Shown: piece by piece, positions 47,813 to 55,046 of the stretch
Numbering within the stretch: position 1 is the first letter of the stretch
How the letters are laid out: each line of letters opens with the position of its first letter
Assembly: GCA_023150835.1 (NCBI GenBank)
Contig: JAKLKB010000004.1
Location: forward strand, 93,301 to 157,300
Direction of reading: 5' to 3'
Length of the DNA: 64,000 bases
Source of the DNA: Myxococcota bacterium
GTDB lineage: Bacteria; Myxococcota_C; UBA6777
Notes under the pieces: model-generated
Seen by the model: only the letters and a program-made list of their open reading frames with translations
What the model was told of the DNA's origin: nothing
Database searches by the model: none
Position numbers and translations under genes: made by a program

Positions 47813-47929
47813 GAAATCCGCCTATCGTGTGCGCCAAAATGTAGGGGCAGCCCCCTGTGGCTGCCCAAACACAGGGCGTTTACGGCGGATCGCACCTACC
47901 CTTCGCTCACGCATCTCTTGGATATCGTA
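47810..47929 (+). repeat. Family A element, forward, inside hicA
   Basis: Starts TACGAAATCCG, ends TGGATATCGTA, with hairpin GGGGCAGCCCCCTGTGGCTGCCC. It interrupts hicA after codon 6. Confidence 0.87.
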
Positions 47930-47963
47930 TCGTGTAGACATACAAGCAAAAGGTTTGAGGATT

Positions 47964-48620
47964 ATGGAAATGGTCGGCTATGTTTATGTGCTTTATAACG
48001 ATGAAATTCCTCGCCATATAAAAGTAGGCAAAACAGCTAAAACCCCATCGTTAAGAGCAAAGGAATTAAGTAATGGAACTGGCGTCGTTGGGGATTGGCT
48101 AGTTGCTTATTTTGTTCGTGTTTCGGATTATGATGAAGTAGAAAAAAAAGCTCACGATTTATTACACAATTATCGCTCAAAAAAGAATAGAGAAATATTT
48201 AATACCAGCATTATAACAGGAATAGAGGCTGTAAACAAGGCGGCGATAAGCGTATCTTCTACAATCGATATACCAGGAATCGATGGCGTATCTGCTCAAT
48301 GTAAAACGATCAACGACAAAAGGAGCGAATCGGCCTCTGAGATCCCGCATTCTCCACTTTTCTCTACAATAAATAACCAAAGCGATGAAGAACATGTTTA
48401 TTTAACGTTGCGAAGTCGCTCAAAACGCATAAATTGCACATACTTTACACTCAGCGACGTTATTCGCGCAACGAGAAAGTGTAAAAATGTCACACAGGCT
48501 CAAGAAATGATGCTGTGCTTAAAAGCAAGAGGGTTGGTAGAATATATCGGAGAACGTGTATTAGAAAATCGAAAAAGATCAAATGTCTGGAAGATCTTAG
48601 AAAAAGAGGTCGGCGGTTAA
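47964..48620 (+). CDS. T5orf172 (GIY-YIG superfamily) domain protein
   Basis: 218 aa from ATG 47964 with TTTGAGGATT upstream; ATG 47970 is also possible. The frame open from 47829 is element-derived upstream. Residues 4-80 (GYVYVLYNDEIPRHIKVGKTAKTPSLRAKELSNGTG, DYDEVEKKAHDLLHNYR, REIFN) are the T5orf172/Mug113 variant of the GIY-YIG fold. The Y-V-Y, K-V-G-K-T, R-x-x-E-L and E-x-x-x-H elements are present. A C-terminal segment (FTLSDVIRATRKCKNVTQAQEMMLCLKARGLVEYIG) looks like a winged helix. It may be a DNA-end or modified-DNA processing accessory protein. Strongly AT-rich, clearly foreign. It overlaps by 4 bases the convergent methyltransferase stub. Confidence 0.8.
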   Translation: MEMVGYVYVLYNDEIPRHIKVGKTAKTPSLRAKELSNGTGVVGDWLVAYFVRVSDYDEVEKKAHDLLHNYRSKKNREIFNTSIITGIEAVNKAAISVSSTIDIPGIDGVSAQCKTINDKRSESASEIPHSPLFSTINNQSDEEHVYLTLRSRSKRINCTYFTLSDVIRATRKCKNVTQAQEMMLCLKARGLVEYIGERVLENRKRSNVWKILEKEVGG

Positions 48621-49007: not shown

Positions 49008-49248
49008 TACGATATCCGCCCATAGTGTGATCGTAAAGATGTAGGGGCAGCCCCCTGTGGCTGCCCTATTACAGGGTGTTTTGTTTATGCCCGACGGAAC
49101 GGATGGGAGGGCAGCCCCCTGTGGCTGCCCTATTACAGGGTGTTTTGTTTATGCCCGACGGAACGGATGGGAGGGCAGCCCCCTGTGGCTGCCCTATTAC
49201 AGGGCGTCTACGCACGCCCCTTCGTGTACGCATCACTCGGATATCGTA
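49008..49248 (+). repeat. Family A element, forward, internally amplified and nested in family B
   Basis: Ends TACGATATCCG and CGGATATCGTA. The middle segment (AGGGCAGCCCCCTGTGGCTG with the TGTTTTGTTTATGCCCGACG spacer) occurs three times, making the copy about 240 bp rather than 113 bp. Confidence 0.87.
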
Positions 49249-50074: not shown

Positions 50075-50150
50075 CCAACTTCGCCATCAATCGGGGCTTT
50101 TCGCCATACCACCCAACTTCGCCATCAATCGGGGCTTTTCGCCATACCAC
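50075..50150. repeat. 38-bp x 2 tandem repeat at the 3' end of the fusion gene
   Basis: CCAACTTCGCCATCAATCGG plus GGCTTTTCGCCATAC occurs at 50075 and 50113. The second copy covers the stop codon at 50125-50127. Confidence 0.8.
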
Positions 50151-53100
50151 CCAACCAGTCCTCCCAACTTCGCTTGCCTTGTTGGATCTCCTCAAGCTCC
50201 TTCTGTCCACAACGAAACGCTTGACGCAATTGGGCGAAGGTTTCGGGCGTAACCAAGCGTGCGCTGTTGCGCTGTGGCGCAACAGGCGTATAGATCGGCA
50301 TCAACCCTGTCGAAGGATCTTCTTCTGAACGCTTGTCGATGCGCGTGATCCCGATCGGGTGCATCCACGAACAATGCGAAAACGTCGCAAAGAACGCCTC
50401 CAACAACGCCACCCTTTGCGTCTGCTTCTGCGCTGCGGGATGCGTACACAGCCAAGCCACCAACAGCGCCCAACTCATCCCGCCAAGATATCCCTTCGCT
50501 TGTTCGTGAACTTCCGCTTGCACCGCCCAACACTTGATCACCCGCAAGATATCGGAAAACGCAGCGTGACATCCATAACGCGCAAGCACCGCACGCAGGT
50601 ACAACACATCCAACAGCCCCAACAGCGACCGCTGACTGGCGATATCCCACGCTTCCAGCGACAAGGCACGCTCGATATCTACCGAGTGACCGCGCTGCAC
50701 CATCCAAGAAAGATGCCCCAAGTTCTCCTGAAATCCAGCACTTTCGACAGCTTCTGGCATCCGCGCATACAAGATATCCACTTCGAGGCCCGCCGCTCGC
50801 AACTTCAACAACGGCACCCGCGCATCCCAGATCACTCGCGCCTCTTCGATCCCTTCCCATCCCAAAAGACCCGCCATCACAGAAGAATTGAACACCTCAC
50901 GCGACAACTCCGATGGCCCGATACACAAGATATCCGCATCGCTATGTAAGGTCTGCGCACCGTACGCCGCCGCTCCCACGGGCCACCAGACACGCCAAGG
51001 CAACGCACCTTTCGCCTCGACCGAACAGACACGCTCGCAAAGCCCACGCAATGCCTCCAACAACGCAGCCGAGCGCGTCTGTTTTTCCGAAACAGCCGCC
51101 TCCAACCCCTGCAACCAGCTCCGCAAGCCTTCTTCTGCTTTCTCGATATCGGCCTCTTCGGTCGCCTGTGGCGTCGATGTATCCGCCACGTTCGTGTGAG
51201 GAACGGCGCTTTCTTCTGGAGCCTGCTTTTGGCTTGCGACCACCGCTTGCTCTCGCTCTGGGGCGTTCTCTTCTCCCAAATAAATCGTGCGCTTACCGCC
51301 AAAGAAGACGCGCTCTTGTACTTCAAACGGGGCTTCTCCTTTGCGACAGATCAACGCAACGTGATCCACCACAAAACGGACGGGCCGCCACGATAGTTGC
51401 CAACCCTGTAAGGTTTTTTGTAGCTCTCCGCGAGCGTCCCCACGCAACTGACCCAAACTCAAATGGGGCGTATAACCCGAGCGAGAACGATGGCTTTGCT
51501 CATCGCAAAGCGGAAACAGCGCTTGTAAGGCCGATTGAAGACGGTGCAAGTCACGAGATGGTTCCACCGATGGCTCTAACCAGATCGTATCGCTCTTTCC
51601 GTGACGAAAGCTGCGCATCTGCGAAAAGCTCACTTCAAAGGGCTTCACTTGCGCAAGTGCCGCTTGGATGGCCTTGATCGCATCGGGAAAAAGCACCGAT
51701 TCCACAAAGCCGTACACCAAATTAAGATGAGGCATCCAACGCCTATAGCTTTTGTCGTGCTTTTGGCGGATCGCTTGGATCGGCTCCCACAGATCAGGCG
51801 GTGGTATCACGATCAACGCGCTATGATAGGTCGGTTGGGCCTTTGCCAGCCGTTCAAGCAACGGCTCCTCCAACGGATTCACAGCCTTCAAAGCCTTGGC
51901 CGCTTTCGATACCCCGGCCACCGCGACGATTTGGGTGGCTTCGGATGATTCGGCGACTGCGATGGTTTGAGTGGCTTCGAATACCTCGGCGACTGCGATG
52001 GCTTGAGTGGCTTTCGATACCCCGGCCACCGCGACGATTTGGGTGGCTTCGGATGATTCGGCGACTGCGATGGTTTGAGTGGCTTCGGATACCTCGGCGA
52101 CTGCGATGGTTTGGGTGGATTCGGAGGCTTCGTCAGATTCGGACGCATCGGAGGAGTTCTCGCCACGTTTCGCTCCGTCTGAGTTCTCGCCACGTTTCGC
52201 TCCATCCGAGTTCTCGATCTGTTCTTGCTTTTCGGATACGCCGACCAAATCAGAGGGATGTTGTGTTGCTTTGTTTGTCAACAGCGCAGGATCGGGCGAT
52301 TCATCCAAAGGCACAGAGAAAGACACCGCCAAACCGAAGTGATCCGAAGCGTAATCACGTCCAAGCAAGCCCCCCATCGAACGAGCCGAAGGGAAGCCAA
52401 ACATCTCTGCCTGCATCGGCATTACCGCTGCGTCGGGATCAGCCAACCAAACAGCGTCCAAACGCCGCGAGCGCCCCGAAACGCTCAAGGCCGATGCAAG
52501 TGGATTATGAAGCGGATCGAAACTTTCGCAGGGGCGCTCCATCTCCAACATCGGCCAAGTATCGACAAAACCCGCTGCTTCAACCGCATCCCAAAGCAAC
52601 GGGATACGGCTGGTGTCGAGATGAGCGAGTTCTTCGGGGATCTCCATCAAGGGATACCACACAACATCGCGGGGATCTTCGTTGAGGTCGCCAAACAAAA
52701 ACCCCCGCTTTTGTACAAGCGTCCAATCTTGCGCACAGATCGAAAGAATCTCTTCGCGATCAAGTACACGCAAAGACGCGGATGGTTGGGCGCTTTGCCA
52801 TGCCAAGACGCGACACAAGCTATGAAGCTGCAACGACCGAAGGAACCGACCCATCCGCGCAAAGTCACTGCTGAGATGAACGCACGCTGCAAAACTTAGC
52901 TTCCCACCGAGCGCAAACTGCGCGATCAGCGCGTGCTTTTCCCCTGAAAAACGCAGATCTTGAAGCAAAAAAGGCCGTCGCATCAACAGCAATTGTCCAA
53001 CGCCCTCGCCCAACCCCTGTGCGGTTTCCTCTTCGGACACCCAATAATGCGAGCGCACCGACGAGTTACGCAACAACATCCGCACCATCGCAGGTTCCAC

Positions 53101-53706
53101 TTCTTGCAGCCCGATCAGATCCGCATCACAGGCCGACAAGATCTCGATGGCTTGAGCATAACGCTTCTGGGTCTGATCGCCGCCTGCCGCGTAGCGGCCC
53201 GCAAGAACATTCCACGTCACAACGCGAAAGCTTGGAGATTCGGGGATGGGCTGGATCTCCCCCTCCCAAGGCATCCAGCGACCGAGTGTTGAAACAAACC
53301 GATAGCATCGGCGTGTACGCAACGACAAGCCTTTGAGATGTTGCCGCGCTAACGTGATCCACAGCGATTCTTCTGTCATACTCGACGGAAGAGCGACGAT
53401 CTCTGCGGGAGGCTCGCTCCCCTGCCCAACAACATCTGCCAAACGGTCGATCCGCGCAGCACGATCCCACACCACTTCACCGTTGTATTCGAATCGCTCG
53501 ATCCGATGCCAAGGCACTTCTTCTGGATCAAAACCGTCAAACGGGACGCGCTTGCTGCCCATAAACCGCTCTTGCATCTCGATCCAACAAGCTGCTGTGT
53601 CAAAACGCCGATCCCATCGGATCTGATCGTAGATCTGACGGCCCGTCCGAAATGGACCTTCCACGAGACTCTGGGTTTCTTGCGTTTTTGGGGGTAATTT
53701 TCGCAT
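50125..53706 (-). CDS. Four-domain RNA-end processing fusion: MJ1316/DUF504 + EEP + 2H/LigT + poly(A) polymerase
   Basis: 1193 aa from ATG 53706 behind GGAGGCAACGAAG. Residues 20-90 are a DUF504/MJ1316 domain (IYDQIRWDRRFD, VPFDGFDPEEVPWHRIERF, VVWDRAARIDRL). Residues 160-462 are an endonuclease/exonuclease/phosphatase domain: TWNVLAG, LQEVE (Glu202), FGDLNEDPRD, RRLDAVWL, SDHFGL. Residues 470-610 are a repetitive ATQ-x-x-AVA linker. Residues 625-805 are a 2H phosphoesterase with PHLNLV (His660) and PHLSLG (His748). Residues 890-1170 are a eukaryote-type poly(A) polymerase: GAAAYGAQTLHSDADILCIG (Asp923, Asp925), LEVDILYA (Asp977), GYLGGMSWALLVA and MPIYTPVAPQRNS. All active sites look intact. 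Likely RNA 3'-end recognition, trimming and nucleotide addition in RNA repair (inference). Confidence 0.9.
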   Translation of the reverse strand: MRKLPPKTQETQSLVEGPFRTGRQIYDQIRWDRRFDTAACWIEMQERFMGSKRVPFDGFDPEEVPWHRIERFEYNGEVVWDRAARIDRLADVVGQGSEPPAEIVALPSSMTEESLWITLARQHLKGLSLRTRRCYRFVSTLGRWMPWEGEIQPIPESPSFRVVTWNVLAGRYAAGGDQTQKRYAQAIEILSACDADLIGLQEVEPAMVRMLLRNSSVRSHYWVSEEETAQGLGEGVGQLLLMRRPFLLQDLRFSGEKHALIAQFALGGKLSFAACVHLSSDFARMGRFLRSLQLHSLCRVLAWQSAQPSASLRVLDREEILSICAQDWTLVQKRGFLFGDLNEDPRDVVWYPLMEIPEELAHLDTSRIPLLWDAVEAAGFVDTWPMLEMERPCESFDPLHNPLASALSVSGRSRRLDAVWLADPDAAVMPMQAEMFGFPSARSMGGLLGRDYASDHFGLAVSFSVPLDESPDPALLTNKATQHPSDLVGVSEKQEQIENSDGAKRGENSDGAKRGENSSDASESDEASESTQTIAVAEVSEATQTIAVAESSEATQIVAVAGVSKATQAIAVAEVFEATQTIAVAESSEATQIVAVAGVSKAAKALKAVNPLEEPLLERLAKAQPTYHSALIVIPPPDLWEPIQAIRQKHDKSYRRWMPHLNLVYGFVESVLFPDAIKAIQAALAQVKPFEVSFSQMRSFRHGKSDTIWLEPSVEPSRDLHRLQSALQALFPLCDEQSHRSRSGYTPHLSLGQLRGDARGELQKTLQGWQLSWRPVRFVVDHVALICRKGEAPFEVQERVFFGGKRTIYLGEENAPEREQAVVASQKQAPEESAVPHTNVADTSTPQATEEADIEKAEEGLRSWLQGLEAAVSEKQTRSAALLEALRGLCERVCSVEAKGALPWRVWWPVGAAAYGAQTLHSDADILCIGPSELSREVFNSSVMAGLLGWEGIEEARVIWDARVPLLKLRAAGLEVDILYARMPEAVESAGFQENLGHLSWMVQRGHSVDIERALSLEAWDIASQRSLLGLLDVLYLRAVLARYGCHAAFSDILRVIKCWAVQAEVHEQAKGYLGGMSWALLVAWLCTHPAAQKQTQRVALLEAFFATFSHCSWMHPIGITRIDKRSEEDPSTGLMPIYTPVAPQRNSARLVTPETFAQLRQAFRCGQKELEEIQQGKRSWEDWLGGMAKSPD
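51895..52130 (-). repeat. 60/120-bp tandem repeat in the fusion-gene linker
   Basis: About six 60-bp units encode E-A-T-Q-T-I-A-V-A-E-V/S-S and A-T-Q-I-V-A-V-A-G-V-S-K. They alternate so that a 180-bp higher-order unit is duplicated. A shorter SDGAKRGEN duplication follows at 52165-52215. Confidence 0.8.
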
Positions 53707-53805
53707 CTTCGTTGCCTCCGTGTTTGCGGCAACAAACGATCTCCCCCCTCCCAAAGTTCAAACCAACCCACAAAGGCCCTCTTTCTCTACAGCATCGGGT
53801 GTTTT

Positions 53806-53901: not shown

Positions 53902-53940
53902 TAGAGTTTGATATGGGTAGTTGCACCACACGCGCCATTA

Positions 53941-54214
53941 TACGAGATCCGCCCGCTGTGTAATCGGTAAAGATGTAGGGGCAGCCCCCTGTGGCTGCCC
54001 AATCGTAGGGCGTCTAGCGCCATTATACGAGATCCGCCCGCTGTGTAATCGGTAAAGATGTAGGGGCAGCCCCCTGTGGCTGCCCAATCGTAGGGCGTCT
54101 AGCGCCATTATACGAGATCCGCCCGCTGTGTAATCGGTAAAGATGTAGGGGCAGCCTGCCCAATCGTAGGGCGTCTACATACTCTCCTTTGTGTACGCAT
54201 CTCTCGGGTATCGC
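53941..54214 (+). repeat. Family A element, forward, 85-bp unit x 3
   Basis: TACGAGATCCGCCCGCTGTG occurs at 53941, 54026 and 54111 (period 85 bp). Only the third unit continues to the family's right end (CGGGTATCGCA). The third unit lacks 8 bases (CCCCTGTGG region), which removes one arm of the hairpin. Confidence 0.9.
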
Positions 54215-54777: not shown

Positions 54778-55046
54778 TACGATATCCGAGTAGGTACACA
54801 AAGAAGAGTACGTAGACGCCCTATGATCGGGCAGACACTGCCCCTACATCCTTACGATCACACAACGGGCGGATCAAAGAAGAGTACGTAGACGCCCTAT
54901 GATCGGGCAGACACAGGGGTCTGCCCCTACATCCTTACGATCACACAACGGGCGGATCAAAGAAGAGTACGTAGACGCCCTATGATTGGGCAGACACAGG
55001 GGTCTGCCCCTACATCCTTACGATCACACAACGGGCGGATCTCGTA
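54778..55046 (-). repeat. Family A element, reverse, about 83-bp unit x 3
   Basis: Ends TACGATATCCG and CGGATCTCGTA. AAAGAAGAGTACGTAGACGC occurs near 54799, 54876 and 54959. The first unit lacks the AGGGGTCT hairpin arm present in the other two, mirroring the deletion in the copy at 53941. Confidence 0.9.

Follow-up and report, generated by a model that had tools for sequence, protein, structure and literature searches.

The Pnkp1-Rnl-Hen1 module, in which an RNA ligase (Rnl) is coupled to a polynucleotide kinase (Pnk), has been shown to repair RNA cleaved by ribotoxins (PMC4411300), and the MJ1316 (DUF504) domain is described as a predicted RNA cyclic-end recognition domain found in diverse fusions to RNA-repair domains (PMC6514570). 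Here we analyse a 64,000-nucleotide stretch of DNA (the window) from a Myxococcota bacterium (assembly GCA_023150835.1, contig JAKLKB010000004.1, positions 93,301 to 157,300), which carries a gene whose single product joins MJ1316, an EEP hydrolase, a 2H phosphoesterase and a poly(A) polymerase (PAP)-type nucleotidyltransferase. The MJ1316 prediction reportedly goes back to Burroughs and Aravind in 2016, who placed multidomain MJ1316 proteins in RNA repair, and we take LENG9-type eukaryotic proteins to be multidomain relatives of this kind. Like the Rnl/HD-Pnk and Pnkp1-Rnl-Hen1 modules, the system considered here couples an RNA ligase to a polynucleotide kinase; unlike in those modules, where a phosphatase (HD or MPE) and the Hen1 methylase act, healing would come from the 2H and EEP domains and a nucleotide-adding PAP.

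A role of the four-domain protein in RNA-end repair is well supported by comparison of sequences and gene neighbourhoods; the protein very probably belongs to an RNA repair system that has been little studied, and we consider it probable that the protein is an RNA end-healing and 3′-end nucleotide-adding enzyme working with a separate ligase–kinase sealing module. MJ1316 would bind the RNA end, as the literature predicts; the 2H domain, judged by its family, would open a 2′,3′-cyclic phosphate; the TDP2-like EEP domain may hydrolyse the remaining phosphate block or end adduct; the PAP-type transferase would add nucleotides to the freed 3′-OH; and the Rnl/Pnk partner would phosphorylate the 5′-OH end and seal. 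The sequences themselves show the four domains, how these are conserved and selected, and the linkage to ligase and kinase genes; the reactions, their order and the nucleotide added are what we infer. MJ1316 repair fusions have already been predicted, and we do not claim the four-domain architecture as unseen; what comes from the present analysis is the operon coupling, the loss of an HD motif in the partner, the TDP2-like EEP domain and the co-occurrence of PAP and MJ1316. No paper in the collection searched combines these Pfam accessions, and we know of no bench test of a protein of this kind.

Coupling to RNA ligase and kinase genes

Two observations carry the RNA-end repair reading beyond domain names, namely actinobacterial coupling to an RNA ligase–kinase and strict co-occurrence with it among the genomes sampled. 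At all four actinobacterial loci (4/4), a gene with RNA_ligase and AAA_33 kinase domains lies directly upstream, and the four-domain gene starts inside its stop codon (TGATG). The full ligase–kinase was found in 2/396 actinobacterial genomes, and the four-domain gene is present in these two and no others; a match of this kind between two independent genes has a chance of 1 in 78,210, a figure that takes no account of shared ancestry, both genomes belonging to one genus. An RNA ligase gene is also placed head-to-head with the four-domain gene at 4/4 loci, in four genomes of a distant myxobacterial genus (g617). When the actinobacterial fusion was aligned with HD-Pnk, a separate protein in the window's genus, the fusion proved to have lost its HD motif, FLHDIGKP having become LHAER, LHAHP or LHRTP, so that 3′-end healing would pass from the ligase–kinase to the coupled four-domain protein. 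In the window's own genome (G000), contig C97 carries a separate operon of an RNA ligase, an HD-polynucleotide kinase and a T4Rnl2-like ligase (L102:302-3807), the RNA ligase being 57% identical to the Embleya ligase partner, and RtcB is encoded on contig C120. As a side observation, three Myxococcus-like genomes (G838, G863 and G893) have an unusual six or seven RtcB matches each, some of which are two pieces of one gene.

The operon also bears on an RNA surveillance alternative, in which the PAP domain tails damaged RNA, EEP and 2H trim the 3′ ends and the RNA decays. Bacterial polyadenylation normally promotes RNA decay, and EEP families include deadenylases; nevertheless, association with an RNA ligase–kinase, which restores RNA, and an EEP domain nearer to TDP2 than to CCR4 or ANGEL2 make this explanation unlikely. 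Returning to end repair, a more specific heal-refill-seal pathway is conceivable, if doubtful, in which the 2H and TDP2-like domains clear the damaged end, the PAP domain re-synthesises lost 3′ nucleotides without a template and Rnl-Pnk seals. If true, rescue would extend beyond RNA with a broken phosphodiester bond to RNA from which nucleotides are missing.

Together, these results turn a prediction from a list of domains into a testable system, with tractable hosts (Streptomycetaceae and Myxococcus relatives) and a translationally coupled ligase–kinase whose HD phosphatase is dead. Natural reduced forms (MJ1316 alone, MJ1316–2H, and PAP without its RRM-like domain) could be used as controls. 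If active, the protein would be a case of a eukaryote-type PAP employed by bacteria to repair RNA, and MJ1316 would gain a tested function.

The gene and its four domains

The gene is read on the minus strand, from the ATG at 53706 to a stop codon at 50127-50125 (Table 1), with the position and length given in a preliminary description drawn up from the sequence alone; an alternative in-frame TTG start at 53754 would give 1209 amino acids (aa). That description named four domains on one polypeptide, which profile searches bore out. The matches to MJ1316, Exo_endo_phos (E 7.6e-6), 2_5_RNA_ligase2 and PAP_central were above the curated Pfam cut-offs, and PAP_NTPase (PF20750) was marginally below its own (26.9 versus 27 bits). 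In the AlphaFold model the domains had mostly a predicted local distance difference test score (pLDDT) of about 75-94, and the linkers were disordered. An assembly chimera of adjacent genes, which, like a lack of PAP or DUF504 profile matches, would have undone the preliminary description, is ruled out by full-length homologues in several phyla, one of them 87% identical.

Table 1 The four-domain gene and its parts (window positions)
Feature	Positions	Strand	Evidence
Four-domain protein gene, 1193 aa	50125..53706	-	ATG 53706 after a ggagg-like ribosome-binding site; full-length homologue 87-89% identical in metagenome-assembled genome KLAP109
MJ1316/DUF504 domain, residues 20-82	53461..53649	-	PF04457 4.8e-14
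EEP hydrolase domain, TDP2-like by profile, residues ~154-467	52306..53247	-	PF03372; family profile vs TDP2 2.2e-23
Linker from EEP to 2H, of low complexity, with coding repeats of 36/108 bp	51902..52125	-	Predicted disordered, pLDDT <50
2H phosphoesterase domain, residues 635-790, H660-L-N and H748-L-S	51337..51804	-	PF13563 2.4e-38
PAP-type nucleotidyltransferase with PAP_central, residues ~850-1187	50146..51159	-	PF04928 3.1e-20; human PAP gamma 1.5e-25

The MJ1316 match scored 53.2 bits against a curated cut-off of 26.3, and the isolated domain (53431-53667) was modelled with confidence (pLDDT 91.8). This model had no PDB neighbour with a Foldseek E <0.89 or a VIA Z >3.3, a result that is no proof of a novel fold. 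The 2H family profile matched a Bacillus subtilis protein (2d4g) with an E of 4.9e-10. Both 2H histidines are present, as first described, and do not vary across the family; the second motif (HLS) agrees with H-x-S/T, whereas motif 1 is HLN and not the H-x-T/S form, and reads HVT, HIT, HIN or HVN in relatives.

The EEP domain has its metal-site residues (N166, E202, H277, D340, N342, D417 and D455-H456). Against solved structures, the EEP family profile matched TDP2 (2.2e-23) ahead of nocturnin (2.7e-9) and ANGEL2 (1.9e-4), and structure comparison by VIA-align gave Z 26.0 for human TDP2 (range over TDP2 structures 24-26), with which Foldseek agreed; neutral sphingomyelinase came near (Z 24.1). 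By profile and model, the domain is thus classed as TDP2-like, not ANGEL2/CCR4-like. An ANGEL2-like 2′,3′-cyclic phosphatase, tried as an identity that would fit the repair idea, found no support over TDP2 in the profile comparison. The domain shares with TDP2, its top PDB family by both profile and structure, the EEP fold, the motifs and the D-x-W...N...RLDR...SDH pattern; it differs in being only 20% identical, in an insertion of ~50 aa in the window copy and in the residue equivalent to a TDP2 tryptophan, presumably Trp297, which is Phe in the window copy and Phe or Tyr in the family.

TDP2 is a VPg unlinkase that cleaves 5′-tyrosyl RNA bonds (PMC7077319, PMC3049768). The four-domain protein might by analogy act as a 5′-end unlinkase, acting on invading (phage) or chemically blocked host RNA, with the EEP domain stripping an adduct, either peptide or nucleotide, off the 5′ end and the other domains processing the 3′ end. 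TDP2 as top match and a copy of the gene on a conjugative Calothrix plasmid speak for this, but the changed tryptophan and the almost equal structural score of neutral sphingomyelinase speak against it. We know of no protein-linked RNA in these hosts, and we rate the explanation as improbable.

For the C-terminal part, the preliminary description had argued for a eukaryote-type PAP, and this was upheld: the G-Y-L-G-G-x-S-W-A and M-P-I-Y-T-P-x-x-P-Q-x-N-S blocks were both found, and canonical PAP was the top match. Human PAP gamma matched the window protein with a phmmer E of 8.9e-24, and the PAP family profile matched canonical PAP at E 5e-71. In VIA-align, yeast PAP (2q66) aligned over 314 residues with Z 33.0 and a root-mean-square deviation of 2.7, and yeast and mammalian PAPs scored Z 30-33 versus 23-25 for terminal uridylyltransferases; Foldseek again agreed. 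The Asp triad and the active-site Lys are kept, D923, D925, D977 and K1058 corresponding to bovine D113, D115, D167 and K228 (numbering of chain 1q78). The window protein therefore resembles PAP alpha and gamma, yeast Pap1 and Pla1 in its NTase and PAP_central fold, Asp triad and GYLGG-SW and MPIYTP-PQ-NS blocks, and many of its relatives also have the C-terminal RRM-like domain; it differs in that its PAP part is embedded in a four-domain protein, has no RRM-like domain and is changed at three residues of ATP contact. Two bacterial-type PcnB/CCA genes lie elsewhere in the window's genome, and because these ordinary enzymes are separately present, the four-domain protein is not the housekeeping tailing enzyme.

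The nucleotidyltransferase fold raises a signalling alternative as well, in which a PAP/CD-NTase-like domain makes an oligonucleotide messenger that 2H and EEP degrade, as in OAS/CBASS-type immunity. Models of CBASS cyclases did match (NCBIfam 1.5e-4, PADLOC 0.002), but far below cut-off and over the shared central fold alone, canonical PAP matched far better by profile and structure, and the neighbouring genes in the window included no recognised CBASS effector, which leaves this explanation very improbable. Identity as a CBASS cyclase was rejected, the matches being weak and sub-threshold.

Conservation, distribution and points against end repair

A full-length copy of the gene in the Myxococcota genome KLAP109 allowed selection to be compared along the protein. 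The ratio of nonsynonymous to synonymous substitution rates (dN/dS) was 0 in MJ1316 (dN 0), 0.08-0.12 in EEP, 0.22-0.26 in 2H and 0.21-0.24 in PAP, whereas the long linkers that follow EEP and 2H gave 0.6-1.4. Each of the four domains shows purifying selection, which rules out a pseudogene. Active-site residues are among the columns found invariant over ~20 diverse members, namely N, E, H, GDxN, D and SDH of the EEP domain, the two histidines of 2H and D-x-D of PAP.

Around 30 further homologues with the same domain order were found in Myxococcota, Actinomycetota and on one cyanobacterial plasmid, additional copies being those of Embleya, Nonomuraea and the Calothrix plasmid. The survey showed MJ1316–EEP–2H–PAP in nearly all long homologues, the order being retained across phyla. 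PF04457 was present in 4/5 genomes of the small phylum to which the window belongs, in 63/195 of the phylum containing the Myxococcus-like family and in 2/396 of an actinobacterial phylum. Among 386 sampled bacterial genomes it occurred in six, and PAP_central occurred in exactly these six and in 0/14 control genomes; contigs and frame lengths assign both domains to one frame in each of the six. No match was found among 50,697 phage records, so a phage origin is not supported. Long branches meet in the family tree, and we drew no transfer history from it. Two linear Streptomyces plasmids encode MJ1316–2H two-domain proteins (L113:4247-5122 and L114:4944-5819) that are unannotated in the gene table used. 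Two Myxococcus-like loci (L047:4636-7841 and L049:6131-8565) hold a full-length gene that is apparently frameshifted, through decay or sequencing error, and at L063:3206-9802 the four-domain gene is tandemly duplicated, the second copy being more divergent, with GA for the GS motif and the MJ1316 WDP replaced.

Several findings weigh against an end-healing and nucleotide-adding enzyme with a sealing partner. About ten Myxococcus-like genomes (L043, L050, L051, L052, L058-L061, L076 and L077) have MJ1316 alone (~80-100 aa) with no remnant of EEP-2H-PAP, flanked in the two cases compared by the same genes as full-length relatives; this loss implies that the full machine is dispensable. No ligase or kinase gene adjoins the four-domain gene at the window locus or at the Myxococcaceae-type loci inspected. 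TDP2, the closest EEP relative, is known as a 5′-end enzyme. The PAP part differs from bovine PAP at three positions that we take to be ATP contacts (Ser102 to Ala, Asn202 to Leu and Tyr237 to His), and the C-terminal RRM-like RNA-binding domain is absent from both the window copy and KLAP109. Since Myxococcaceae-type homologues have this domain in alignment to human PAP gamma, the window's genus has lost it, and with its loss and the altered ATP pocket poly(A) activity is not assured.

These last changes raise the possibility, which we think rather unlikely, that the PAP part serves the window's genus as an RNA-binding scaffold, with no catalysis or with altered specificity, so that the protein would in effect be a phosphodiesterase guided by MJ1316 and limited to healing ends. 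The missing RRM-like domain in both species of the genus and the three substitutions speak for this, but the three catalytic Asp and the equivalent of Lys228 are kept, the PAP part is constrained (dN/dS as above), GA for GS recurs in the otherwise intact-looking second copy at L063, and Asn202 and Tyr237, although kept in several relatives (for example, L009), vary in others.

For the favoured end-repair enzyme, the preliminary proposal that one protein senses, opens, trims and re-extends damaged ends thus holds for RNA-end repair, through the operon and co-occurrence, whereas the individual steps are putative. Sensing of cyclic ends by MJ1316 is itself a prediction; trimming is a guess, given an EEP domain closest to a 5′-tyrosyl phosphodiesterase; re-extension is weakened in the window's genus by the state of its PAP part; and a machine in a single polypeptide was overstated, as sealing needs partner proteins. 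The statement that all catalytic residues are present applies to the metal ligands and fails at the three positions that contact ATP in mammalian PAP.

Surroundings of the gene

No defence or repair gene was recognised among the neighbours within the window, and Rfam gave no RNA family there. A T5orf172-domain gene (47829-48617) lies near amidohydrolase and formamidase genes. Intergenic tandem arrays, perfect or near-perfect and of 2.5 copies, were found at 53932-54156 (85 bp), 54838-55041 (83 bp) and 49045-49204 (64 bp). They carry a GGGGCAGCCCCCTGTGGCTGCCC-like palindrome, and a TATAAT-like box lies within the unit of 85 bp, immediately upstream of the four-domain gene.

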